Positions 5,764-24,101 of a stretch of DNA of 39,427 nt are shown one piece after another. The notes below the pieces were generated by a model. It saw only the letters and a program-made list of their open reading frames with translations, made no database searches and was not told where the DNA came from. The DNA is from Methanobrevibacter sp. (GTDB lineage Archaea; Methanobacteriota; Methanobacteria; Methanobacteriales; Methanobacteriaceae): NCBI RefSeq assembly GCF_017447225.1, contig NZ_JAFSNZ010000050.1, forward strand, positions 1 through 39,427, given 5' to 3'. Both the position numbers and the translations under genes were made by a program. Numbering within the stretch: the stretch's first letter is position 1; each line of letters begins with the position of its first letter.

Positions 5764-6387
5764 TCAGTTCCAGATTGCATTTACGATGAAGTTGTAAATG
5801 TCCCTCACACCGGAGAAAAATCCGTTGTATTGTGTGTTGTGGATGTTGGACATGTCATCTTCAATACGGTCATCAACCTCTTTTATGAATGTCTCGTTAT
5901 CATAGTCATGGGTTGTGAAATAATGTACCTGAATAGAATAGTTGGTGTCCTCTTTAGGGAAAACATAATTGACTCCTATATGGCTCCAGGTTACGTTATT
6001 GTCTCTTGAAGGATTTGTGAAGTATTCTTTGGATACAGGAACGCCACTTAAAGTAGAATTCTCTCTTTTAATAACTTCATATCCACCATCTTCCATCGAT
6101 GCAAACTTGGCGTCCGAAATCCCTGTAATATGGTCTTCCGGCCAGTCGTCCCAGTGATCTATGTAAACGTATTCGTTTGTAATCGCATGAGGAGTTTTTG
6201 ACTGGTTTGTCAGATTCAGTTCTTCAGTCGTATTCCAGGCTTGAGGAACTACAGCCTCACTGTGTCCAAAATCGATTGTCCTGTCAGTATGAACACTTAA
6301 GAAACTGTTTATACCATTGATATTGGCCGCAATAAATATGATTATGATAGCTAGGATGACACTTCGAATCATATCTTCTCTTCTCAT
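5764..6387 (-). CDS. Anchored extracellular protein, last gene of the kinase/glycosyltransferase unit
   Basis: A 207-residue protein with an N-terminal hydrophobic segment (residues about 8-26) and a polar remainder, so a single-pass protein with an outward domain is likely. The body contains several N-x-S/T sequons (NTT, NLT, NQS, NST, NVT, NYS, NET), which fits exposure to the archaeal surface N-glycosylation machinery. The family is not recognised. ATG 6387 overlaps the TGA of the glycosyltransferase gene as ATGA, with GGAGG just upstream, so translation is probably coupled. Its place suggests a role in export, assembly or sensing of the glycosyltransferase product. Confidence 0.7.
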   Translation of the reverse strand: MRREDMIRSVILAIIIIFIAANINGINSFLSVHTDRTIDFGHSEAVVPQAWNTTEELNLTNQSKTPHAITNEYVYIDHWDDWPEDHITGISDAKFASMEDGGYEVIKRENSTLSGVPVSKEYFTNPSRDNNVTWSHIGVNYVFPKEDTNYSIQVHYFTTHDYDNETFIKEVDDRIEDDMSNIHNTQYNGFFSGVRDIYNFIVNAIWN

Positions 6388-8144
6388 TTTTTCCCTCCTT
6401 TATGTTCAGTTTTAGCCCATTTACGTTCTTTTCTAGTCATCATACTATACATTGTCATAAAGAATAATGGGATTAAATGGAAACAATAAACGTAATATTT
6501 AACAAGGTCTTTGATGAATTCAAGTATTCCAGGTTTGTCTCTTGACAATGCAAGCGTAATTCCTGGGAAAAACGAAATCATTGACAATATACCTACAATA
6601 AATGGAGCTTCCATCCTAATAATGGTTACATTGTGGAATAAGAACCATGATATTGCATTAGTAATAGTAATAAGGAATCCGAAGAATATGAGCAGGTTGA
6701 AACTGTAGAATGAAATATGTTCGATAATTCCTAATTTTTTGGCAAAGGGAATTTTAGACCTTAATATTTTTGGAAGATATACAAAGAACGTTTCAAAGTT
6801 ACCGATAGCCCATCTGACTCTCTGTCTGAAGAATGGTTTCCATTCTGTCACGGCTTCCTGGTAAATTGCTATTTCACCGCAATATCGTATTTTTCCGCCT
6901 TCAAGCATTATTTTAACGGCAAGGTTCAAATCTTCAGTTACAGCAAATCCGTCCCATTTACCTGAATCAATAATTGACTGTTTTTTAACGAATTGTCCGT
7001 TTCCACCTAAATATCCGGTTCTTCCCAAATTATCTTTTGCTCTTAGGGTATTTCCGAAACTTGCAAATTCCACATGTTGCATACGGGCCAGGTAGTTTTC
7101 ATTTTTATTGTACATTTTCACTCTTGACTGGACACCATCTATTTCGGGGTCTGCAACATATGCCACAATTTTTTCAATAAAATCAGGACATATTTTAGTG
7201 TCTGCATCAAAAACTCCGATGATTTCTCCGTTTGACAATGTCAATGCATCATTCAAAACAAATCCTTTTCCTTTTCCGGATACAGGAGGTTTTCTTGTAA
7301 CAATTTTCAATTGAGGAATGTCATTTTTCAAATTGGACAGTATTTCTCCAGTGCTGTCTGTTGAACCGTCATTAATGACAATAACTTCATATTGGGGTTC
7401 GCCATCAACATGGTATTGTGATTCGCAGATACTTCTAACGGTCATTTCAATTGTTGATTCTTCGTTGTGTGCTGGGATAAAAATGCTGACATAGGGTTTT
7501 TCATAATCGTATGATACTTCATCAGGCTTTTTAATACTTGCTATTGCATTAATAAGCATTGCTAAGGTTGGTATGAGCAATACCCATTGCAGCCATGTAG
7601 CATTTCTTGATAAAATAGCGATTATAATCAATGCAAAACATAAAACCATAAGAAAACTTGAGTCTGATTTTTCAACCAGCAGTTCATTATTCTTTTCAGA
7701 AATCCTGCTTCTGGCTTCCATAATCTTTTGTGTATTTAATTCATGCTTTCTAATAGCCACTGCCATTGCACGCTGCAATTCCTCTTTATCGATATCTTTA
7801 ATCAGATAACCGTATGGTGTAATCATTAGGACTTCATCGATGATTTCGTCGAAACGCATTCCGACAATCACTATGTTTGGAATGTTAAATTTTTCCAAAT
7901 CTTTGGTTAACTTAATTAAATCAATATTTTCGATTTCAGAATCTAATAAAACAAGATTTGGGGATAATTCCATAATTTTGCGTTTAATGCTCTCTTTGGT
8001 GTCTGCTGAGCCAACAAAACTATAGTCATAATCCTCAATGTATTCTCTTAACTGATTGATTAGTTCATTATCTGAACTTATAACAAAAATATTTGGATGG
8101 GATTTTGCGATGGAAGTAACTTCGCTTGTATTTTCCGAGCTCAT
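6384..8144 (-). CDS. Receiver domain fused to a membrane family-2 glycosyltransferase
   Basis: A 586-residue fusion. Residues about 15-135 form a CheY-like receiver: Asp25 in the acidic pocket, Asp68 (LVLLDSE) as the likely phospho-acceptor, and the conserved Lys116. Two membrane segments (about 164-180, 184-202) precede a processive GT2 domain like those of PgaC/IcaA or cellulose synthases: VSIFIPAHNEE (219-229), Asp259 in NDGSTDSTG, the DAD metal site (313-315), TED (403-405) and QRVRW (441-445). Three more membrane segments follow (about 477-505, 513-533, 548-568). It should polymerise a surface or extracellular polysaccharide at the membrane; the sugar is unknown. Only 13 bp separate it from the response-regulator gene. 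The acidic pocket has one Asp where a pair is usual. Confidence 0.88.
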   Translation of the reverse strand: MSSENTSEVTSIAKSHPNIFVISSDNELINQLREYIEDYDYSFVGSADTKESIKRKIMELSPNLVLLDSEIENIDLIKLTKDLEKFNIPNIVIVGMRFDEIIDEVLMITPYGYLIKDIDKEELQRAMAVAIRKHELNTQKIMEARSRISEKNNELLVEKSDSSFLMVLCFALIIIAILSRNATWLQWVLLIPTLAMLINAIASIKKPDEVSYDYEKPYVSIFIPAHNEESTIEMTVRSICESQYHVDGEPQYEVIVINDGSTDSTGEILSNLKNDIPQLKIVTRKPPVSGKGKGFVLNDALTLSNGEIIGVFDADTKICPDFIEKIVAYVADPEIDGVQSRVKMYNKNENYLARMQHVEFASFGNTLRAKDNLGRTGYLGGNGQFVKKQSIIDSGKWDGFAVTEDLNLAVKIMLEGGKIRYCGEIAIYQEAVTEWKPFFRQRVRWAIGNFETFFVYLPKILRSKIPFAKKLGIIEHISFYSFNLLIFFGFLITITNAISWFLFHNVTIIRMEAPFIVGILSMISFFPGITLALSRDKPGILEFIKDLVKYYVYCFHLIPLFFMTMYSMMTRKERKWAKTEHKGGKK

Positions 8145-14740: not shown

Positions 14741-14756
14741 TATAACAATTGTTAAT
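14741..14756 (+). promoter_or_regulatory. Palindromic operator upstream of fdhD (site 1)
   Basis: TATAACAATTGTTAAT contains the perfect 12-bp palindrome TAACAATTGTTA (14743-14754). A half copy, TATAACTATT, lies just before it at 14729-14738. The core is identical to site 3. It sits about 20 bp after a TATA-like stretch and 24-35 bp before the fdhD ATG, so a bound protein would cover the transcription start. Confidence 0.65.
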
Positions 14757-14777: not shown

Positions 14778-15608
14778 ATGGATTTAATCAGACAAACGGA
14801 TGTTATTCAATGGAAAGACGGAGAGTATAAAACAATTAAAGAAAACACTGTAAACGACGAATACACTTATTTGTTCATTGATTATTTGCCTCCACGTAAA
14901 TTCTCAACATATCCTGAAAACTTGGAGGATTTTGCTGTAGGATACTGTTTAGGTGAAGGCTTAATTAAAGATTATTCAGACATCAAATCAATCCAGCTGG
15001 ACGGAACTAATATACTGGTTACAACAACTCTTTCACATGACCCCGAAGAGGATCTGGAACAGGATGGAATTGTTCAGCAGAAAAAAGGCAACTGTGAACA
15101 TGCATGTGTCTGCAGATTGCTTGAATATCAGGGAGTCAATTCAGATAATGCCGGAGGAATCAGATCAGATTTGGAAACAATCGAACCAATTCTCTCAGAC
15201 CTGACAGTTGATGCAACACAAATCATTAAAGACATTAAACATCTGACCGATGAGGCTAAAATCTGGCAAAAAACAGCAGGAGTTCATGTTGCACAATTGA
15301 AATATGAGGATAATATAATCATTAGAGAGGACGTCAGCCGTCATGTCGCTGTTGATAAGGTGATTGGAGCAGCTTCAAAAGAAGGCTATGACTTTTCAAA
15401 ATGTTATATATCATACAGTGGAAGAATGCCTGCAGACATGCTGATTAAAGTAATCCGTGTAGGAATTCCTATTATTATTTCTAATGCGGCTCCTGCAGCT
15501 TCAGGTATTGATGTGGCTGAAGCTGGAAACATTACAATGGTGGGTTTTGTTCGTGATAACAGGTTTACTGTTTTTACAGCGCCTGAGAGAATAAATTTAA
15601 AAAAATAG
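14778..15608 (+). CDS. fdhD: Formate dehydrogenase accessory sulfurtransferase FdhD
   Basis: FdhD carries persulfide sulfur from a cysteine desulfurase to the molybdenum or tungsten bis-pterin cofactor of formate dehydrogenase. The 276 residues contain the family signature REDVSRHVAVDKVIGAA, and a cysteine cluster (C106, C110, C112) in the position of the sulfur-carrying loop. The C-terminal SNAAPAASGIDVAE segment matches the cofactor-binding region. Site 1 lies just upstream. No formate dehydrogenase subunit is encoded in the window, so FdhD is separated from its usual client and grouped with other sulfur-transfer genes. It converges with the ThiF-like gene 5 bp away. Confidence 0.92.
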   Translation: MDLIRQTDVIQWKDGEYKTIKENTVNDEYTYLFIDYLPPRKFSTYPENLEDFAVGYCLGEGLIKDYSDIKSIQLDGTNILVTTTLSHDPEEDLEQDGIVQQKKGNCEHACVCRLLEYQGVNSDNAGGIRSDLETIEPILSDLTVDATQIIKDIKHLTDEAKIWQKTAGVHVAQLKYEDNIIIREDVSRHVAVDKVIGAASKEGYDFSKCYISYSGRMPADMLIKVIRVGIPIIISNAAPAASGIDVAEAGNITMVGFVRDNRFTVFTAPERINLKK

Positions 15609-15613
15609 AAAGA

Positions 15614-16369
15614 TTAAAGTTCATCTAATGAAAATGAACCGAAATCTAACAGATCATAAGTTAATATTTTTGGAGCGACTGTAACTTTTCCAATTCCAGT
15701 TATTATTTTATATGCTTCAAAAGCTTCAAGACAACCGATAATGTTTGGTGTAGGTCCGATAACCGGTGGAACACCTGAAGTTACATTTTTCAAGTCATTA
15801 ATTACATCATCATTCAATTCTTTTCCAAGAGATGGAAGATTAAACATTTCTTCATATGTCTTATCGCTGTTTGGAAGAAATACTGTAATTTGGCCTTGTG
15901 TTCCGTGAATTGCACCGTGGATGTATGGAATTCCCAGCTCTTTAGCGGTTCTGGAAACTATCACTCTTGTCAGCACGTTATCCAATGCATCAATGACGAT
16001 ATCTGAGTCTCCGATTACCTTTTTGATATTGCTTTGATCCACATGCTCGTTAAAGGTCGTTGTTTTAACATAAGGGTTTATCAATCTCACTTTATCTGCT
16101 GCTACAGCGCTTTTTTCAAGACCTAAATCAGGCAAGCTTGCTAAGGTCTGTCTGTTCAAATTTGATAAGTCAAAGGCATCCTTATCTACTAAGACAAGTT
16201 CTCCAATACCCATTCTGGCAAGCATTTCTATGGTTTCTCCACCTATTCCACCACAGCCAATGACTGTGATTTTAGCATCTTTGAATCTTTCCTGTTCACT
16301 TCTTGTTACTATACTCATTTGACGGGATGCGATTTCCCAGTATCCGTCACCTATGTATCTTGTTGGCAT
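15614..16369 (-). CDS. ThiF/HesA/MoeB-family E1-like adenylyltransferase
   Basis: A 251-residue E1-like enzyme that should adenylate the C-terminal Gly-Gly of a ubiquitin-like sulfur carrier. It has the nucleotide loop GCGGIGG (38-44), NLNRQ (70-74) with the catalytic Arg73, Lys86 and DALDN (127-131). Only two cysteines are present, one in the nucleotide loop and one near residue 213, so it lacks both the zinc CxxC pairs and the thioester cysteine of many relatives. It may therefore only adenylate and leave sulfur delivery to another protein. Translated 8 bp after larE on the same strand. The obvious partner is the MoaD/ThiS-like protein at 19075. Confidence 0.88.
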   Translation of the reverse strand: MPTRYIGDGYWEIASRQMSIVTRSEQERFKDAKITVIGCGGIGGETIEMLARMGIGELVLVDKDAFDLSNLNRQTLASLPDLGLEKSAVAADKVRLINPYVKTTTFNEHVDQSNIKKVIGDSDIVIDALDNVLTRVIVSRTAKELGIPYIHGAIHGTQGQITVFLPNSDKTYEEMFNLPSLGKELNDDVINDLKNVTSGVPPVIGPTPNIIGCLEAFEAYKIITGIGKVTVAPKILTYDLLDFGSFSLDEL

Positions 16370-16377
16370 TTTTTCAC

Positions 16378-17388
16378 CTAAATATTTCTCCTTAATTTTG
16401 GCAGTAAATTCATAAATGAATCTAAGGCACTTTCGTAATCTTCTAAGTCATATCCGTTGATTAGACCATTTTCATTAATAATCAAGTTTTCTATCTCTAT
16501 TTTTGTGTCATTTTTTTTAATTATTTCATTTTCAAGCAGTTCTTGAGTATTTTTTATATTTATTGTAAATGGTAATTGATATGAGAATGAATTGTCATGA
16601 TAATCAATGCTGATGTATTCGTCATCATCAATTTCAGATAAATTTAAGGCAACTTTCTTGAAACCCTTCTTTTTTAATTCATCGTTAATTTCACTAAATT
16701 TATTGTCTTTTAGAATTTTATCCAAACTTTCAACTTCAACAATACCGAATTTTCCTAAATCTCTGACTTTAACGATTTCACAGCCAGTTTTTTCATGAAT
16801 ATGATCTTCACACCAACTGATTCTTTCAATTTTTTCTTGTGTAGTTGGAGTGTTAGTGGGAATTCTTGTTGCTAGACAAGTAGTTGATCTTGAATAAGGG
16901 ATATTATTCTTATTTAAATATTCATGAATGTCTTTTGAAGTCAATTTGGCTTCGATAAAGGGTGTATTAAATCCTTTTTTGTATGTTACGAGAATTCCTG
17001 GTCTGTCAATGACCAAGTCACTAATGTTATTGCCGTCACAGATATAATCAAAGCCTCTTTTTTTAGCTAACTGCTCTATTTTTGAATACATCAGGTTTCT
17101 GCATGTATAGCATCTGCCGGAATCGTTTGACAGGAAGTATTCCTTCTCGTAAAAGTTAACGTCAATTATTTCATGCTTTATTCCAAAGGATTCAGCCACT
17201 TTTCTGGTATTTTCAATAAAATTGCTTGGAAGCAAGTGATTGTCTATAGTAATGGCCAGTGTGTCTTTGGCCACTTTTGATGATAGGTAAGCTATTAATG
17301 TGGAATCGGCACCGCCTGAAAAACCGATGGCAACTTTTCTGTCTTTTAAAATATTTTTAACAATCTCGATTTTTTCTTCTAAATTCAT
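16378..17388 (-). CDS. larE: LarE-like ATP-dependent sulfur transferase
   Basis: A 336-residue PP-loop ATPase of the LarE family, which adenylates a pyridinium dicarboxylate and inserts sulfur when making the nickel-pincer nucleotide of lactate racemase. The PP-loop is SGGADS (24-29). Cys93 and Cys96 (GRCYTC) and Cys171 (TTCLATRIP) match the cysteine positions of LarE forms thought to hold a 4Fe-4S cluster rather than sacrificing their own sulfur. The last about 60 residues are a less conserved extension. No larB, larC or larA is in the window, so the substrate could be different. ATG 17388 has GTGAT upstream. Likely co-transcribed with the ThiF-like gene; a strong hairpin lies in its leader. 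Confidence 0.85.
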   Translation of the reverse strand: MNLEEKIEIVKNILKDRKVAIGFSGGADSTLIAYLSSKVAKDTLAITIDNHLLPSNFIENTRKVAESFGIKHEIIDVNFYEKEYFLSNDSGRCYTCRNLMYSKIEQLAKKRGFDYICDGNNISDLVIDRPGILVTYKKGFNTPFIEAKLTSKDIHEYLNKNNIPYSRSTTCLATRIPTNTPTTQEKIERISWCEDHIHEKTGCEIVKVRDLGKFGIVEVESLDKILKDNKFSEINDELKKKGFKKVALNLSEIDDDEYISIDYHDNSFSYQLPFTINIKNTQELLENEIIKKNDTKIEIENLIINENGLINGYDLEDYESALDSFMNLLPKLRRNI

Positions 17389-17613: not shown

Positions 17614-17627
17614 ATAACAATAGTTAT
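17614..17627. promoter_or_regulatory. Palindromic operator between larE and the GMC oxidoreductase (site 2)
   Basis: ATAACAATAGTTAT, with perfect 5-bp arms and a 4-bp centre. On the minus strand it lies about 40 bp after the TTTATATA box at 17659-17666, so it falls just downstream of a predicted larE transcription start. It is 131 bp before the GMC gene, which has its own copy (site 3). Confidence 0.6.
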
Positions 17628-17725: not shown

Positions 17726-17739
17726 ATAACAATTGTTAA
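17726..17739 (+). promoter_or_regulatory. Palindromic operator of the GMC oxidoreductase gene (site 3)
   Basis: ATAACAATTGTTAA contains the perfect 12-bp palindrome TAACAATTGTTA (17727-17738), identical to site 1. It lies about 20 bp after TTTAAAGTATA and just before the GGAGG at 17746-17750, so it overlaps the expected transcription start. Confidence 0.65.
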
Positions 17740-17757: not shown

Positions 17758-19065
17758 ATTTACGATGTTATTGTTATAGGAACAGGTGCTGGAGGAGCCA
17801 CTGTTGCCAAGGATTTAAGTTTAAAAGATTTAAATGTTCTTATTTTAGAAAAAGGGCACAGACAAGATAATGGAAGCTATGTTAACTCAATGATCAACAA
17901 GGAAATCCATCTAAAAAATAAGCTATCTGATGAGGATAAGGAAAAATATGAATTTCTGACATGGCCTTTGACCTTAACCAACATTGAAGAGATAGGTGGA
18001 ACTACAACTTCCTCTTTGGGTAATGCTTGTTTTTCATGCAGCGGATGCTATTCAAATTCCATTATGCAGCAGTTTGAAGATAAAAATCTTAATATCTTTG
18101 AAGAGCTTCTTGAAGCAAGCGGAGAGCTGAATGTAAAATATTTCCCAAAGAAACTGTGGGGTCATTCCACACAGCTGATTGCTGAAGCAGGAGAAGAATT
18201 AGGATATATTGTCGAGCCTATGCCTAAATTCATTAATTTTGAAAAGTGCAGGTTCTGCGGCAAATGCGTTAACGGATGTCTGTTTGACGCAAAATGGGAT
18301 GGAACATACTTCGTAAATGAGGCTCTGGAAAATGGTGCTACTCTCATTGATGATTTAAACGTTATTGAAGTTCTTCATGAAAACGGTGAAGTGGCTGGTG
18401 TTGTCGGAATCAATAAAAACAATGTAAAGAAAGTTTTCAGGGCAAAAAACGTTATAGTTTCTGCAGGTGCACTCAATACTCCAATTATTTTAAAAAATTC
18501 TGGGCTGAAAAATGTCGGAGGACAGATATTTTTTGATATCTTCACAACTATCGGAGGATATCTGAAAGGTGCCAATCTAAAAAACGAACTGATGATGGGT
18601 ATAAAAATGGAATTCGGACCATATTTCATAACTCCACATTATTCAATGCAATTGCGTCCGTTAATCGAAAGAAATCATTATGAAATTGATGACAGTGACG
18701 TTATCGGACTGATGCTTAAGTTTGCTGATACATGTATCGGAACAATTGACGGAAAAGGGAATATTGAGAAAACCCTGACAAAAGTCGATGTTGATTTAAT
18801 CAAGGAAGGATATCAAAAGGCGGTCAGTGTTCTTTTGAAAATGGGTGTTGATGAAAAATCTATTGTTGCAACTTCTCTTAAGGGAGCACATCCCGGAGGA
18901 ACCGCTGCTGTCGGAGAAGTAGTCAATAATGATTTTGAAACTGAAATCAAAGGTTTGTATGTCTGTGATGCAAGCGTAATACCTGAGGCTCCAGGAAGGC
19001 CTCCAATATTAACAATAGTAGCTATTGCTAAAAAAGTAGCAAAAATAGTTAATCAAAATTTTTAA
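17758..19065 (+). CDS. GMC-type flavoprotein oxidoreductase with ferredoxin-like cysteines; apparent ATT start
   Basis: The first ATG (17890) would remove the FAD-binding fold. In the same frame, codons 17758-17889 encode YDVIVIGTGAGGATVAKDL, the GxGxxG dinucleotide-binding signature, with LILEKGH at the end of the second strand. The frame upstream has a stop at 17737, and no ATG, GTG or TTG occurs between it and 17890. GGAGG at 17746-17750 is 7 nt before ATT 17758, so initiation at ATT is the best reading, giving 435 residues. Cysteine groups at about 91/94/97 (CFSCSGC) and 164/167/170/174 (CRFCGKCVNGC) suggest one or two Fe-S clusters. HPGGTAAVGE and the final VCDASVIPEAPGRPPILTI are GMC C-terminal motifs. 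The substrate is unknown. It is followed after 9 bp by the sulfur-carrier gene. Confidence 0.82.
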   Translation: MYDVIVIGTGAGGATVAKDLSLKDLNVLILEKGHRQDNGSYVNSMINKEIHLKNKLSDEDKEKYEFLTWPLTLTNIEEIGGTTTSSLGNACFSCSGCYSNSIMQQFEDKNLNIFEELLEASGELNVKYFPKKLWGHSTQLIAEAGEELGYIVEPMPKFINFEKCRFCGKCVNGCLFDAKWDGTYFVNEALENGATLIDDLNVIEVLHENGEVAGVVGINKNNVKKVFRAKNVIVSAGALNTPIILKNSGLKNVGGQIFFDIFTTIGGYLKGANLKNELMMGIKMEFGPYFITPHYSMQLRPLIERNHYEIDDSDVIGLMLKFADTCIGTIDGKGNIEKTLTKVDVDLIKEGYQKAVSVLLKMGVDEKSIVATSLKGAHPGGTAAVGEVVNNDFETEIKGLYVCDASVIPEAPGRPPILTIVAIAKKVAKIVNQNF

Positions 19066-19074
19066 GGTGATAAC

Positions 19075-19278
19075 ATGAGTTTTAATTTAAAATACAAAAA
19101 TATTGATGAGAAAAGAGAAATTGATGAAGAAAACTATACTATTAATGATTTGCTGAAAGATTTGGGATTATCTGCCCAAACTACTGTTGCAAAAATTAAC
19201 GGTGATCTCACAGTTGAAGATACTGTCATTAACGACGGCGATGAAGTTCAGCTGATTCAGATAATCTATGGCGGATAA
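19075..19278 (+). CDS. MoaD/ThiS-like sulfur carrier protein
   Basis: A 67-residue beta-grasp protein ending in Tyr-Gly-Gly, the terminus that E1-like enzymes adenylate and convert to a thiocarboxylate. The layout fits ThiS or MoaD: a beta hairpin, then a helix (TINDLLKDLGL), VAKINGDL, a DGDEVQLIQII strand and the tail. A GGTGA ribosome binding site precedes the ATG. It is co-transcribed with the GMC flavoprotein. The only E1-like candidate in the window is at 15614-16369. It could serve thiamine, molybdopterin or tungstopterin synthesis, or the sulfur pathway proposed for this locus; the sequence alone does not decide. Confidence 0.88.
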   Translation: MSFNLKYKNIDEKREIDEENYTINDLLKDLGLSAQTTVAKINGDLTVEDTVINDGDEVQLIQIIYGG

Positions 19279-19316: not shown

Positions 19317-19332
19317 TATAACACTTGTTATA
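19317..19332 (+). promoter_or_regulatory. Palindromic operator of the amidotransferase operon (site 4)
   Basis: TATAACACTTGTTATA has perfect 7-bp arms, TATAACA and TGTTATA, around CT. It is centred about 22 bp after the TATA box TTTATATA (19299-19306) and 23-38 bp before the start codon, so it overlaps the expected transcription start. It is the most symmetrical of the five copies. Confidence 0.7.
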
Positions 19333-19354: not shown

Positions 19355-20152
19355 ATGTGCGAAATTTTTTGTTTTAATTCTGATAAGCCAAAAGAAGTAA
19401 ATCAATGTCTTGAATGTTTTTATAATCACTCAGAAGATCATCCACACGGATGGGGACTGGCAAACATGCACTCTGATGATTCTATAATCAATAAAGAACC
19501 TGTAAAAGCATCATGCAGCCAAAACCTGAAAAACATATTGTCCAATCCTGTTGTTGGAAAGAATGTTTTTGCTCATATTAGGCTAGCAACAGTAGGTGAG
19601 ATAATCTCTCCAAACTGCCACCCGTTCATTGAAGCTGATGACAATAACCGATCATGGATGTTAATTCATAACGGAACAATCTTTGACTATCCTGAATTGG
19701 ATAAATATGCCGATAAGGAAAATGGGGACACTGATTCTGAAAGGATTCTGCTTTATATAATTGATAAAATCAACGAGTTTGAGCATGAAAAAGGTGCTCC
19801 TTCAACCATTAAAGAGAGATTTAACATTCTAAATGATCTGGTGGCGGATCTGTCTAAAAATAATAAGCTTAATCTGATGATTTATGATGGTGATTTGACT
19901 TATATCCATTCAAATATGAAGGATTCACTATATTATTTAAAAAATGAAGAGGGATTTCTGGTTGCTTCAACTCCCTTGGACGGCGATGAAAACTGGAAAC
20001 CTGTTGAATTAAATAAACTCTTCGGTCTGATTGATGGAAATATAATATTTGAAAGTGAAGAGCATGAAAATGAGTTCATATTAACTGAAGAGCATGAAAG
20101 AAGGATAGAAGAATTCCTGAAAACAATACACAGAGATGAAAATAATGATTGA
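19355..20152 (+). CDS. Class II glutamine amidotransferase (EgtC/YafJ-like)
   Basis: A 265-residue Ntn-type amidohydrolase. Cys2 directly follows the initiator Met (MCEIFCF) and would become the N-terminal nucleophile. Family motifs are DHPHGWGLA, HIRLATVG and HNGTIFD. The domain matches the GATase_4 group that includes YafJ and EgtC, which removes the gamma-glutamyl group from an ergothioneine intermediate. It has no synthetase domain of its own, so it is not GlmS or PurF. GGGAGGA lies just before the start. It heads an operon with two glutamate-cysteine ligase-like genes and overlaps the first by 17 bp, which favours a gamma-glutamyl hydrolase role over a general glutaminase; that is inference. 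Confidence 0.87.
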   Translation: MCEIFCFNSDKPKEVNQCLECFYNHSEDHPHGWGLANMHSDDSIINKEPVKASCSQNLKNILSNPVVGKNVFAHIRLATVGEIISPNCHPFIEADDNNRSWMLIHNGTIFDYPELDKYADKENGDTDSERILLYIIDKINEFEHEKGAPSTIKERFNILNDLVADLSKNNKLNLMIYDGDLTYIHSNMKDSLYYLKNEEGFLVASTPLDGDENWKPVELNKLFGLIDGNIIFESEEHENEFILTEEHERRIEEFLKTIHRDENND

Positions 20153-21542
20153 TGATGATTCTGTAAGAAATAAACTATATAATGAATTCATAAAGCCGAC
20201 TACACAAAAGAAGAATTTCATTGGTATAGAAATAGAAATACCAATCATTAATCTGAATAAGGAAGCTGTGGATTTCGATGTTGTTCACAAAATAACAGAC
20301 AAATTTCAAAAACATTATTTGGATTTTAAACCAGAGGGCATAGATTATGAAGGCAATATATTCTCTCTAAAAAATCCGGAAACTGACGATATTGTCTGTT
20401 ATGACTGTTCATATAATAATATAGAATTTGCAATGGGAAAAGAAAAGGATTTATTCACGATAAATGATCGTTTTTGTGATTATTATTCATTTGTTAAGGA
20501 ATCTTTTGAAGAATATGATCACACATTAACAGGTATGGGAATCAATCCTTATAGAAAATATAATATAAACAAACCAATTCCCTCTGAAAGATATTTGATG
20601 CTTTATCATCATTTGAAATCTATTGAAAAGTATGAAGATGTTCCGATGCATTTCCATAAATATCCTGAATATGGTATGTTTTCATCTGCTTCACAGGTGC
20701 AGTTGGACGTTTATAAGGACGATTTGGTTAAAACAATAAATGTATTCTCAAAAATCGAACCGATTAAAGCATTACTGTTTTCCAATTCTGTATTTCTGGA
20801 TGAAAATAAACATCGTACTTGCTTTAGGGATGCATTATGGGAATATTCAACTCATGGTGTAAATCCACATAATATTGGCGGATATGATGTTGATTTTAAA
20901 AGCATTGGTGATTTACAGGCATATTTGGAATCTTTAAATATCTATTGCGTAATGCGTGATGAGGCGTATATTAATTTTCCATCAATGAATCTGCTGGATT
21001 ATTTCAATCAGGAATATGTTCGTGGAGAAATTTACAGCAGGGGTGAATATCGAAGTATTGATATAAAGCCTCGTCTAGATGATATTAAGTATTTAAGACC
21101 ATTTAAGTTTATCAATTTAACATTCAGAGGCACTGTTGAGTTTCGAAGCATATGCACTCAACCTATCAGGGATTCAATGTGTGTTGCAGCATTTCACTTA
21201 GGCCTTAAAGATAAATTGGATGAATTGGAATATATTATAGATAATGATGAAATAATTTATCATAAGGGCTATACTGCAGGCGAACTGAGAAAATTATTGG
21301 TTCATGAGGAAATTCCTTCTTTCATCGATAAGGATGGTATATGTAAGCTGTCAAAAGATATTGTTGATTTGGCAAGCGATGGCTTAAAAGAAAGAGGAAT
21401 CGGCGAAGAAGTATTTGTAAAACCATTATATGAACGTATTAAAAAACACACAAATCCTGGAAAAGAGTTAATTACCTCAATACATAGTGGTGTTAAATTG
21501 GAAAGTATTATTGAAGATTATGGGAAATTGGATTTATATTAA
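20136..21542 (+). CDS. Glutamate-cysteine ligase-like enzyme, GCS2/EgtA-like
   Basis: A 468-residue protein of the carboxylate-amine ligase group. FIGIEIEIPIINL near residue 30 is the glutamate/ATP-binding strand of the GCS2/EgtA-like branch; SSASQVQLDVYKDD, HGVNPHNIGGYD and a late GTVEFRSICTQP strand fit the same fold. It should form a gamma-glutamyl amide with an amine or amino acid such as cysteine. The start overlaps the amidotransferase gene (ATG 20136; an alternative ATG 20145). It is clearly different from the next gene, which belongs to another branch. Having both argues that the two act on different acceptors or at different steps. Confidence 0.8.
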   Translation: MKIMIDDDSVRNKLYNEFIKPTTQKKNFIGIEIEIPIINLNKEAVDFDVVHKITDKFQKHYLDFKPEGIDYEGNIFSLKNPETDDIVCYDCSYNNIEFAMGKEKDLFTINDRFCDYYSFVKESFEEYDHTLTGMGINPYRKYNINKPIPSERYLMLYHHLKSIEKYEDVPMHFHKYPEYGMFSSASQVQLDVYKDDLVKTINVFSKIEPIKALLFSNSVFLDENKHRTCFRDALWEYSTHGVNPHNIGGYDVDFKSIGDLQAYLESLNIYCVMRDEAYINFPSMNLLDYFNQEYVRGEIYSRGEYRSIDIKPRLDDIKYLRPFKFINLTFRGTVEFRSICTQPIRDSMCVAAFHLGLKDKLDELEYIIDNDEIIYHKGYTAGELRKLLVHEEIPSFIDKDGICKLSKDIVDLASDGLKERGIGEEVFVKPLYERIKKHTNPGKELITSIHSGVKLESIIEDYGKLDLY

Positions 21543-21556
21543 TTAGGGGGATGATT

Positions 21557-22957
21557 ATGAATTTATTGAATTTAACTAAATTCTCTCCAAATGAGATTTT
21601 GGCTGGTTCATTTGGAATAGAATGGGAAAGTCTGAGAGCTAAAAAGAACGGACAGCTGTCCTTAACGCCTCACCCGGAAGTGTTCGGAGACAAGCTGAAA
21701 AATCCGTTAGTAACCACTGACTTTTCAGAAAGCCAGATAGAGATTATTACTCCACCATTTAAAACAATCGATGAGGCATTTGATACATTTTCCCTGTTAT
21801 CTGATCTGGTAAATGCATCAATTCCTGATGATGAGTATCTGTGGTTTCAGTCAATTCCTTGTATTTTACCCTCTGATGACCAGATACCTATAGCACAATA
21901 CTCAAAGGATGGTGTTGACTCTCATAAGTACAGACAAAATCTGGCCAGCAAATACGGCCTTAAAAAGCAGATGATTTCTGGTGTTCACTTTAATTTTTCA
22001 TTCACAGACGAATTTCTAAAGAAATTGCATGACCTTCAGGATTCAGATCTGCCCTTTAAAGAGTTTAGAAATGAAGTTTATTTAAAAATAGCCAGAAACT
22101 ATCTGAGATACTGCTGGTTAATTATATATCTGACAGGATGTTCTGTAAGCTGCCATAAGACATTTACAGAGGACTGTATCAGCTTAATGGATGGTGAGGA
22201 TGGATATGGAAGTTTCTATTCAACAAAAGGTCCTTCATTTAGAAATGCTTCATGCGGATATAAAAATCTAAAAGAGCTTTATCCGTCTTACAGAAGTGTA
22301 GATGAATTTGTAAGGGATGTGAACGGATTCATTGACAATGGAGACATTTCCGGAGCCAGAGAATTATACACTCAGGTCAGATTAAAGCCGAAAAATCCAA
22401 AAGACTTATTAAATTCATTGACTGATACTGGAATTGAATATATAGAAATAAGGACCTTGGATATTAATCCTTTCTATAAATGCGGTCTTGTCAGGCATGA
22501 TATGTACTTTCTTCAATTGTTTTTAATATACATGCTTGTTAAATCAGAGTCAGACTATGAGCTTTGGCAAAAAGAAGCTAGTCTGAATGAAGAAAATGTT
22601 GCTGCAAGTGCATATGATGATTCAATGAGGCTTTTAAAAGATGGTGAAGAGATAACTCTAAAAGAATGGGCTGCTGAAATAATCAATGAAATGCACGGAA
22701 TGTGTGAAGTGCTTGAAATAGGCGATCCGTCCACTTTAAATCTGATGCTTAACCGTGTTTCAAATCCTGAGTTGACTTACGGCAGGAGACTGCTGGATTT
22801 GATTAAAGAAAACGGATATATCAAGACAAATACAATTATTTCAAAAAACAACAAGAAAACCAGTATCAATTCTTTGAAAAACATTAATCCTAAAGAATCA
22901 GATGAGGTTAAAAAGTATCTGAATCTGGCTTTCGTTGAGAATTATTGTGATGTTTAG
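21557..22957 (+). CDS. gshA: Glutamate-cysteine ligase, GshA type related to GshAB N-terminal domain
   Basis: A 466-residue protein. FGIEWESLRA, then LSLTPHPEVFGDKLKNP and TTDFSESQIEIITPP follow the N-terminal gamma-glutamylcysteine synthetase domain of bifunctional GshAB/GshF. YIEIRTLDINPF is the conserved strand before the substrate loop. There is no C-terminal ATP-grasp domain, so only gamma-glutamylcysteine or a similar dipeptide is expected, not glutathione. An AGGGGG ribosome binding site 6 nt upstream favours ATG 21557 over ATG 21551. It is the third gene of the operon, 14 bp after the previous stop. A GshAB-like ligase is unusual in a methanogen and may be of bacterial origin. Confidence 0.85.
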   Translation: MNLLNLTKFSPNEILAGSFGIEWESLRAKKNGQLSLTPHPEVFGDKLKNPLVTTDFSESQIEIITPPFKTIDEAFDTFSLLSDLVNASIPDDEYLWFQSIPCILPSDDQIPIAQYSKDGVDSHKYRQNLASKYGLKKQMISGVHFNFSFTDEFLKKLHDLQDSDLPFKEFRNEVYLKIARNYLRYCWLIIYLTGCSVSCHKTFTEDCISLMDGEDGYGSFYSTKGPSFRNASCGYKNLKELYPSYRSVDEFVRDVNGFIDNGDISGARELYTQVRLKPKNPKDLLNSLTDTGIEYIEIRTLDINPFYKCGLVRHDMYFLQLFLIYMLVKSESDYELWQKEASLNEENVAASAYDDSMRLLKDGEEITLKEWAAEIINEMHGMCEVLEIGDPSTLNLMLNRVSNPELTYGRRLLDLIKENGYIKTNTIISKNNKKTSINSLKNINPKESDEVKKYLNLAFVENYCDV

Positions 22958-23095: not shown

Positions 23096-23111
23096 TATAA
23101 CTATTGTTATA
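23096..23111 (+). promoter_or_regulatory. Palindromic operator of the binding-protein gene (site 5)
   Basis: TATAACTATTGTTATA has perfect 6-bp arms around TATT. It lies about 17 bp after a TATTTAAAAA stretch and 18 bp before the start codon, with the ribosome binding site GGTGAT between. A second TATA-like TTTATATA near 23000 could drive a longer transcript. Confidence 0.65.
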
Positions 23112-23129: not shown

Positions 23130-24101
23130 ATGAATAAAAAGATAGGTGTTATTTTAGCAGTGGTCTTAATCGCCTTACTCGCAATGGGTTCAGTCAGCGC
23201 TGGCTGGTTCGACTTTTTAGGCGGAGACTCTGGCAACAAAGTAACTATTGGTTATTTACCTTCTGATCACGATTCTGCATTATTTGTAGCTGACGCTCAA
23301 GGTTTATACAAAGAAAAAGGAATTGAAACTGAACTTGTTCAGTTCAACAATGGTGGAGACTTAATGACTGCTATGGCAAGTGGAGAAGTTGATGTCGGAT
23401 ATGTAGGTATCTCTCCTGTATTGTCTTCAGTTGAAAAAGGTGTTCCTGTAAAAATCATTTCCGCTGCTCAAAATGAAGGTAGTGGAATTATTGTTTCAAA
23501 CGAATCTGGAATTGCTGCAGCTTCCGATTTATCCGGTAAAAACATTGCAACTCCAGGTGAAGCAAGTATTCAATACGTATTATTAAATTACTACTTAAAT
23601 AGTACTGGTTTATCAATTGACGAAGTAAATGCATCCGCAATGAAAACTCCTTCAATCAACGATGCAATCAACACCAACACTATTGATGCAGGTGTAACTT
23701 TCCAACCGTTCGTAAGTACTTCTGAAGCTGCTGGAAATGGTGTTTTAGCAACTTCTGCTGATATCTTACCAAACCACCCTTGCTGTGTTGTTGTAGCTTC
23801 ACAAGATTTAATTGATAACAACCCTGACACTGTTAAAGCTATTGTAGAAATCCATGAAAACGCTACTCAATTCATCAATGATAATATTGATGAAAACGCT
23901 AGTGCTGTAGTGGACTTATTACCTGAAGACATCGTTTCTAATGCAGATGTAGAAGCAGACTCATTAGCTAGTTTCCCATTCCTCTCAGGTTTAGATGATG
24001 ACTACAAAGCAAATGTTGACAGTTTCATGCAATTAGAAGTAGATTTAGGTATTTTAAACCAAACTATTTCACATGATGTTTTATTCTGGGAAGGAAAATA
24101 A
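23130..24101 (+). CDS. ABC transporter substrate-binding protein, SsuA/NMT1-like, without partner genes
   Basis: A 323-residue exported binding protein. Residues 1-24 form a signal peptide ending VSA before GWFDF, with no lipobox Cys, so a lipid anchor is not expected. The mature part starts VTIGYLPSDHDSALFVADAQG, followed by LYKEKG, GGDLMTAMASGEVDVGYVG and ASDLSGKNIATPGEAS, the arrangement of the SsuA/TauA/THI5 group that takes up sulfonates, taurine, nitrate or thiamine precursors. No permease or ATPase gene is nearby. Its operator is shared with the sulfur genes, which favours a sulfur compound such as a sulfonate; coenzyme M is possible but unproven. The stop is followed by CTCC and a T-run. 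Confidence 0.88.
   Translation: MNKKIGVILAVVLIALLAMGSVSAGWFDFLGGDSGNKVTIGYLPSDHDSALFVADAQGLYKEKGIETELVQFNNGGDLMTAMASGEVDVGYVGISPVLSSVEKGVPVKIISAAQNEGSGIIVSNESGIAAASDLSGKNIATPGEASIQYVLLNYYLNSTGLSIDEVNASAMKTPSINDAINTNTIDAGVTFQPFVSTSEAAGNGVLATSADILPNHPCCVVVASQDLIDNNPDTVKAIVEIHENATQFINDNIDENASAVVDLLPEDIVSNADVEADSLASFPFLSGLDDDYKANVDSFMQLEVDLGILNQTISHDVLFWEGK

Follow-up and report, generated by a model that had tools for sequence, protein, structure and literature searches.

A 39,427-nucleotide stretch of Methanobrevibacter sp. DNA (contig NZ_JAFSNZ010000050.1; hereafter the window) carries three intact open reading frames (ORFs) at positions 19355-22957 of the forward strand, which we read as one operon encoding an EgtC-like amidase, a ligase of the GCS2 fold (hereafter GCS2) and the glutamate-cysteine ligase GshA. 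We judge it about an even call that this trio is a cysteine-regulated module for gamma-glutamyl thiols, and it probably represents a thiol pathway that has yet to be described, not a leftover part of ergothioneine synthesis. According to this model, GshA would join glutamate and cysteine to give gamma-glutamylcysteine. GCS2 would serve as a second ATP-dependent gamma-glutamyl ligase that caps the amine of a cysteine-derived compound, and the EgtC-like N-terminal nucleophile (Ntn) hydrolase, as its dedicated partner, would later strip the gamma-glutamyl group by means of its N-terminal cysteine. Such capping and uncapping would follow the logic of EgtA and EgtC without hercynine. The acceptor would be cysteine or a cysteine derivative, the EgtC-like protein would act on the GCS2 product, and the output would be a low-molecular-weight thiol or a cysteine store. 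The tie to cysteine is drawn because the clostridial version of the trio lies near cysteine-synthesis genes and because the methanogen operon belongs to a sulfur gene set defined by a putative operator. Little is known about the low-molecular-weight thiols in the methanogens of the gut or in many of its anaerobic Clostridia, and a cysteine-linked operon shared by both offers a genetic handle on them. The hosts of the trio include makers of ruminant methane, and the operon presents a testable gamma-glutamyl cap/uncap pair outside ergothioneine synthesis.

The first gene (19355..20152, +) encodes an EgtC-like class II (Ntn) gamma-glutamyl amidase or glutamine amidotransferase (GATase) that matches PF13230 (GATase_4; E=1.8e-30). 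The class II GATase signature is present, with Cys2 as the nucleophile, R76 in the HIRxAT motif, the N106-G107 oxyanion pair and D127 in GDTDSE, and these residues are invariant across 36 sequences. An AlphaFold2 model with a predicted local distance difference test (pLDDT) score of 88.4 matches the P. aeruginosa structure 1te5 (E 4e-14), and against EgtC bound to glutamine or its natural substrate (4zfk/4zfl) it yields target-normalised template modeling (TM) scores of 0.68-0.77. The score against the EgtC equivalog model TIGR03442 is 70.6 bits, far under the cut-off of 218.65, and for this reason the protein is classed by sequence as EgtC-like only, and not as an EgtC equivalog.

The second gene (20136..21542, +), which overlaps the first by 17 bp, encodes a protein to which no Pfam family is assigned. 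The PF04107 (GCS2) profile found no match in the genome that contains the window (G000, hereafter the own genome), and five controls did match. The protein is recognized by the plant glutamate-cysteine ligase (GCL) model TIGR01436 (E=5.7e-10), and its AlphaFold2 model (pLDDT 85.6) most closely resembles the plant GCL structure 2gwc (TM 0.79, E 2.5e-16). By profile and predicted fold, it is a separate, very divergent plant-GCL-like family. An initial reading made from the sequence alone had called it GCS2/EgtA-like, which holds for the fold but not for membership in PF04107. Residues of the GxExE, RY, QVQLD, R-x-x-x-W and E-x-R motifs are kept across 45 aligned sequences. Four cysteines (C91, C229, C271 and C340), each located within one of four conserved active-site motifs, are invariant in 45/45 of these sequences, which come from both domains of life.

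Given these four cysteines and the nearby genes for a ThiS-like carrier and an E1 enzyme, the substrate of GCS2 could be a cysteine derivative that is loaded with sulfur or bound to a metal, and the EgtC-like protein would then uncap the final product. We tentatively suggest, as a possibility rather than an expectation, that the operon serves an undescribed low-molecular-weight thiol or that GCS2 is a metal-, iron-sulfur (Fe-S)- or persulfide-dependent gamma-glutamyl ligase. Structural studies would find a new target in this family, for which Pfam has no model. Among more divergent extra members, only one (locus L144 of genome G386) lacks one of the cysteines, C229; its genome has no EgtC of any kind, and an M20 PepT-like peptidase gene adjoins its GCS2 gene. 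A plasmid search with GCS2 returned a single weak match, from Natrinema.

The third gene (21551..22957, +) encodes GshA, a glutamate-cysteine ligase of the gamma-proteobacterial/GshAB type with a strong match to PF04262 (E=4.2e-90). At 468 amino acids, it covers only the ligase half of GshAB (positions 11-420 of a 756-position model), and neither a GshB domain nor the C-terminal half of GshF was found in the protein. Thus, the description "GshAB-type ligase" made from sequence alone is apt for the ligase half, but the GshB half is missing and the protein is GshA only. Its GxExESLR, DFSES, SGVHxNFS, FRN...GY, ELYxxxRxK and ExRxLDINP motifs align with those of 1v4g/3ln7, and its closest kin is the GshAB of L. 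salivarius (45%). The three assignments to one operon made in the sequence-only reading are therefore borne out by the intact ORFs and the PF13230, TIGR01436 and PF04262 matches. That reading had named missing substrate-binding residues as the weak point of its ligase claim; the expected motifs are conserved in both ligases, and the claim stands.

The distribution of the genes identifies which of them belong together. Among 61 genomes (37 Methanobrevibacter and 24 relatives outside the genus), EgtC and GCS2 genes are both present in the same 25 of the 37 Methanobrevibacter genomes and both missing from the same 12, and GCS2 was not found in the 24 relatives. GshA accompanies the pair in 23 of these 25 genomes, and just one of the remaining 12 has an intact copy (Fisher p=1e-6, with phylogeny ignored). 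One genome, G010, has GshA without EgtC. EgtC and GCS2 are the core pair, and GshA is a usual but separable companion. A unit built around GshA was considered and rejected, given that EgtC tracks GCS2 and that GshA is separable.

A bacterial counterpart of the operon was found by scanning 84,980 species genomes, which gave 209 loci. The best 80 of these 209 belong to Methanobrevibacter, Methanosphaera and rumen or gut Clostridia, with the clostridial GCS2 proteins in this subset at 50-57% identity. One contig labelled Bacillales (L094) is almost identical to a Methanobacteriaceae contig (L093) and is probably mis-binned. We read 39 clostridial loci, 33 from the species scan and six from order-level searches. 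The gene order is GshA-EgtC-GCS2 in 30 of the 39, and four more carry the trio with its genes ordered or oriented differently; the methanogen loci have the order EgtC-GCS2-GshA. At the loci compared, the genes of the trio overlap or nearly touch. The trio is rare within the clostridial orders, occurring in 6/294 and 6/295 of the genomes drawn. Genome G064 retains EgtC, at a place away from its GCS2 gene.

Phylogenetic trees, which include few outgroups and some long branches, place the methanogen GCS2 and EgtC proteins each in one supported clade against Clostridia. The GshA tree disagrees: in it, methanogen GshA forms a group with the GshAB of L. salivarius that leaves out GshA from the clostridial operons (99/92). 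Because of this disagreement, the trees indicate that GshA joined the EgtC-GCS2 pair at least twice, separately in methanogens and in Clostridia. Inheritance of the trio as a single block from Clostridia is accordingly not supported by the GshA tree, and the repeated joining argues for a functional link instead of common descent of one block. Chance adjacency was also rejected, on the grounds of EgtC-GCS2 co-occurrence and the recurrence of the trio in two domains.

The methanogen operon is further marked by a palindrome, ATAACAATTGTTAT, a putative operator that lies upstream of EgtC in 25/25 genomes and would bind a repressor. In the window, the palindromic sequence ATAACACTTGTTAT occupies positions 19318..19331 upstream of the operon and is present at 25/25 orthologous loci. 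Sites matching ATAACANNTGTTAT with no more than one mismatch occur 22-60 bp before EgtC in 25/25 loci tested, and are present upstream of neither GCS2 (0/25) nor GshA (0/22). Such sites also precede the genes for an SsuA-type binding protein (16/17), a GMC oxidoreductase (7/7) and FdhD (12/18). Unrelated neighbours lack them (DUF447 0/14), except for an ACS-type gene (2/10). Many EgtC loci have two copies of the operator, located downstream of a TATA-like sequence. The remaining sites in the window are at 14742..14755 (22 bp upstream of FdhD), 17614..17627 (between LarE and GMC oxidoreductase genes), 17726-17739 (before the GMC oxidoreductase gene) and 23097..23110 (19 bp upstream of the SsuA-type gene). 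Together, the five sites make 10 matches, palindromes being counted on both strands, versus 0.22 matches expected.

The best sites elsewhere in the own genome, picked by eye among 40 matches, lie 17-83 bp upstream of cysK-cysE-HTH-cysS (HTH, helix-turn-helix), metY-nifS, pdxST, a pyridoxamine kinase gene, RNase III-metX, sufCB and a second GMC oxidoreductase gene; some other matches of the 40 precede adhesin-like or unidentified genes. The own-genome sites outside the window are on contigs C76, C111, C66, C54, C95 and C19. From its conservation, its position and the identity of the genes behind it, the operator appears to define a putative cysteine/pyridoxal phosphate/Fe-S regulon of Methanobrevibacter, which makes this gene set a candidate sulfur regulon for the genus. 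The gene between cysE and cysS (L184:4060-4437, -) encodes a 125-amino-acid HTH protein with C-terminal CxxC motifs. As a guess, this protein might be the sulfur- or Fe-S-sensing regulator. An Rfam search of the 12-28 kb region gave no riboswitch match, and the literature searched held nothing relevant on the operator or its regulator.

In Clostridia, a link to cysteine is evident from the neighbouring genes. The commonest identified families within 1.6 kb of the trio are Rrf2, CysK, CysE-type serine acetyltransferase, O-acetylhomoserine sulfhydrylase (MetY) and NifS, and 19 of the 39 loci have a CysK, CysE, MetY, NifS or Rrf2 gene within this distance. The Rrf2 regulators have IscR/CymR as their best kin. 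Cysteine-related genes make up 25/115 of near neighbours versus 8/108 of far ones (p=0.0026). One locus (L097) is a sulfur-assimilation cluster that includes genes for Rrf2, EgtC, GCS2, a PatB C-S lyase, a binding protein, siroheme synthase, MetY, sulfite reductase, TusA, thioredoxin and ThiF, and in another (L108) a rhodanese/DsrE2 protein and ThiF are encoded downstream of GCS2. NadA is encoded near the trio in four loci.

Several observations weigh against a cysteine-regulated gamma-glutamyl-thiol module as we propose it. EgtC and GCS2 occur without GshA in G003, G036 and the clostridial genomes G062 and G063 (the EgtC gene of G063 has an in-frame stop), and so the pair does not require GshA. 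Across the own genome, the loose operator pattern shows no enrichment, with 40 sites versus 42 in a reversed control. The acceptor site of GCS2 is unlike that of plant GCL, reading W-xx-STHGxNPHN-x-G in place of W-TDTDKDR-TG, and thus the acceptor need not be cysteine. The Asp of the plant GCL R-x-x-D motif corresponds to Cys340 in a profile alignment. The plant D-x-x-R is also missing from YbdK and from one archaeal PF04107 protein, and its loss in GCS2 therefore says little.

The main rival is a cysteine storage and turnover cycle, in which both ligases make gamma-glutamylcysteine, GCS2 and GshA differing in affinity or regulation, and a Dug3-like EgtC hydrolyses gamma-glutamylcysteine to free cysteine when it is scarce, with no new compound involved. 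Cysteine-regulon features in both lineages suit this scheme, as does the lack of any gamma-glutamyl transpeptidase match in a search of the own genome, a result that also speaks for the capping module. M20 PepT-like genes beside GCS2 in L100 and L144 recall the yeast pair Dug2, an M20 family member, and Dug3, a class II GATase. Nevertheless, two ligases of different subfamilies performing one reaction from one operon would be uneconomical, and EgtC follows GCS2 rather than GshA, as seen in G010. Capping and uncapping is favoured over plain gamma-glutamylcysteine turnover because of this pairing, and we regard the turnover cycle as rather improbable, if a serious contender. The protection and deprotection of an amine proposed in the sequence-only reading, with a ligase and a gamma-glutamyl amidase as partners, remains the best interpretation of the EgtC-GCS2 coupling.

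The same coupling, together with the 17-bp overlap, would also fit a two-subunit glutamine-dependent amidotransferase, glutaminase subunits being common among class II GATases. The Ntn subunit would supply NH3 with which GCS2 amidates a carboxylate, for example to form gamma-glutamylcysteine amide by analogy with glutathione amide. This is unlikely because GCS2-fold ligases normally activate the gamma-carboxylate of glutamate, where NH3 would merely regenerate glutamine; moreover, the nearest folds of the EgtC-like protein are stand-alone EgtC/1te5-type proteins, and the two genes are apart in G064, L100 and L142. Still more doubtful is a role in gamma-glutamylating a non-thiol amine, be it a polyamine, a methylamine or an amino acid, next to sulfur genes that are there by chance. 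PuuA/PuuD and GMAS/MgsA operate by the ligate-then-hydrolyse logic proposed here, and a gene for a PuuD-like class I gamma-glutamyl hydrolase (6381-7184) is directly upstream of GCS2 in L142. However, those systems use ligases of the glutamine synthetase fold in a nitrogen rather than a sulfur context, whereas Clostridia and Methanobrevibacter each show a sulfur/cysteine setting of their own, and GshA is a recurrent partner. Least credible, to the point of being very improbable, is a relict or degrading ergothioneine pathway, which the adjacency of EgtC-like and EgtA-like genes might bring to mind. As the sequence-only reading held, EgtD is missing: none of the 61 genomes has a protein over the TIGR03438 cut-off, the one weak match (G027) scoring 20.6 bits, with a control that matched only M. 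acetivorans and below the cut-off. Given this and the low EgtC equivalog score, an ergothioneine locus was rejected; the genes are also intact and constrained across two domains.

Known systems resemble the operon in part. The mycobacterial ergothioneine cluster likewise encodes a GCS2-type gamma-glutamyl ligase (EgtA) and an Ntn gamma-glutamyl amidohydrolase (EgtC) in one operon, but here there is no EgtD match over cut-off, GCS2 falls outside PF04107 and GshA is extra. By analogy, the nearest precedent for the EgtC-like amidase is the yeast Dug2-Dug3 complex, which cleaves the gamma-glutamyl bond of glutathione (PMC6508711) in a pathway described as restricted to fungi (PMC7340319). Both involve a class II GATase-family enzyme acting, or predicted to act, on a gamma-glutamyl thiol, and two clostridial loci have an M20-type peptidase gene beside GCS2; the fungal pathway degrades glutathione, whereas this operon teams its amidase with a ligase. 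The haloarchaeal GshA/GCR system is similar in that gamma-glutamylcysteine is predicted in archaea lacking GshB (PMC7278568), but Haloferax volcanii has PF04107, whereas here GshA is PF04262 and is joined by the EgtC-GCS2 pair. The bifunctional glutathione synthase GshAB/GshF is the closest kin of methanogen GshA, which lacks the ATP-grasp glutathione synthetase half.

The statement in the sequence-only reading that methanogens are not known for glutathione-type thiols needs correction. A 2020 review predicted gamma-glutamylcysteine ligase, and not glutathione synthetase, activity for GshA of Methanosphaera and Methanobrevibacter, and recounts an early survey in which five unidentified methanogens lacked glutathione and gamma-glutamylcysteine (PMC7278568). 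Thus GshA was already known. For the EgtC-GCS2 pair, its clostridial operon and the operator, no earlier description turned up in the literature searched, which leaves out most subscription journals. Three points also go beyond the sequence-only reading: the counterpart in bacteria, the operator of the putative cysteine regulon and the EgtC-GCS2 core with its separable GshA.

Other genes in the window surround the operon. A ThiS/MoaD-like sulfur carrier of 67 amino acids with a C-terminal IIYGG is encoded at 19075..19278 (+), 76 bp upstream of EgtC. This gene, whose size is below usual ORF cut-offs, is kept in >20 Methanobrevibacter loci. FdhD is encoded at 14778-15608, and a ThiF/MoeB E1-like adenylyltransferase (15614..16369, -) and a LarE-type PP-loop sulfur transferase (16378..17388, -) are recurrent neighbours. 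Downstream of the trio is the gene for the SsuA/NMT1-type substrate-binding protein (23130..24101, +). In relatives, this gene often sits directly upstream of EgtC, and in the window and relatives such genes border the operon at one end or at both, with no obvious ATP-binding cassette (ABC) permease or ATPase genes alongside. The GMC-type FAD/4Fe-4S oxidoreductase gene (17758..19065, +) has its real N-terminus upstream of the ATG called at 17890. In the window (17758-17890) and at 13 orthologous loci, the N-terminal sequence IYDVIVxGxGAGG is preceded by a good Shine-Dalgarno sequence, usually with no ATG, GTG or TTG at the expected position, and it looks likely that the start codon is ATT, ATA or ATC throughout the genus.

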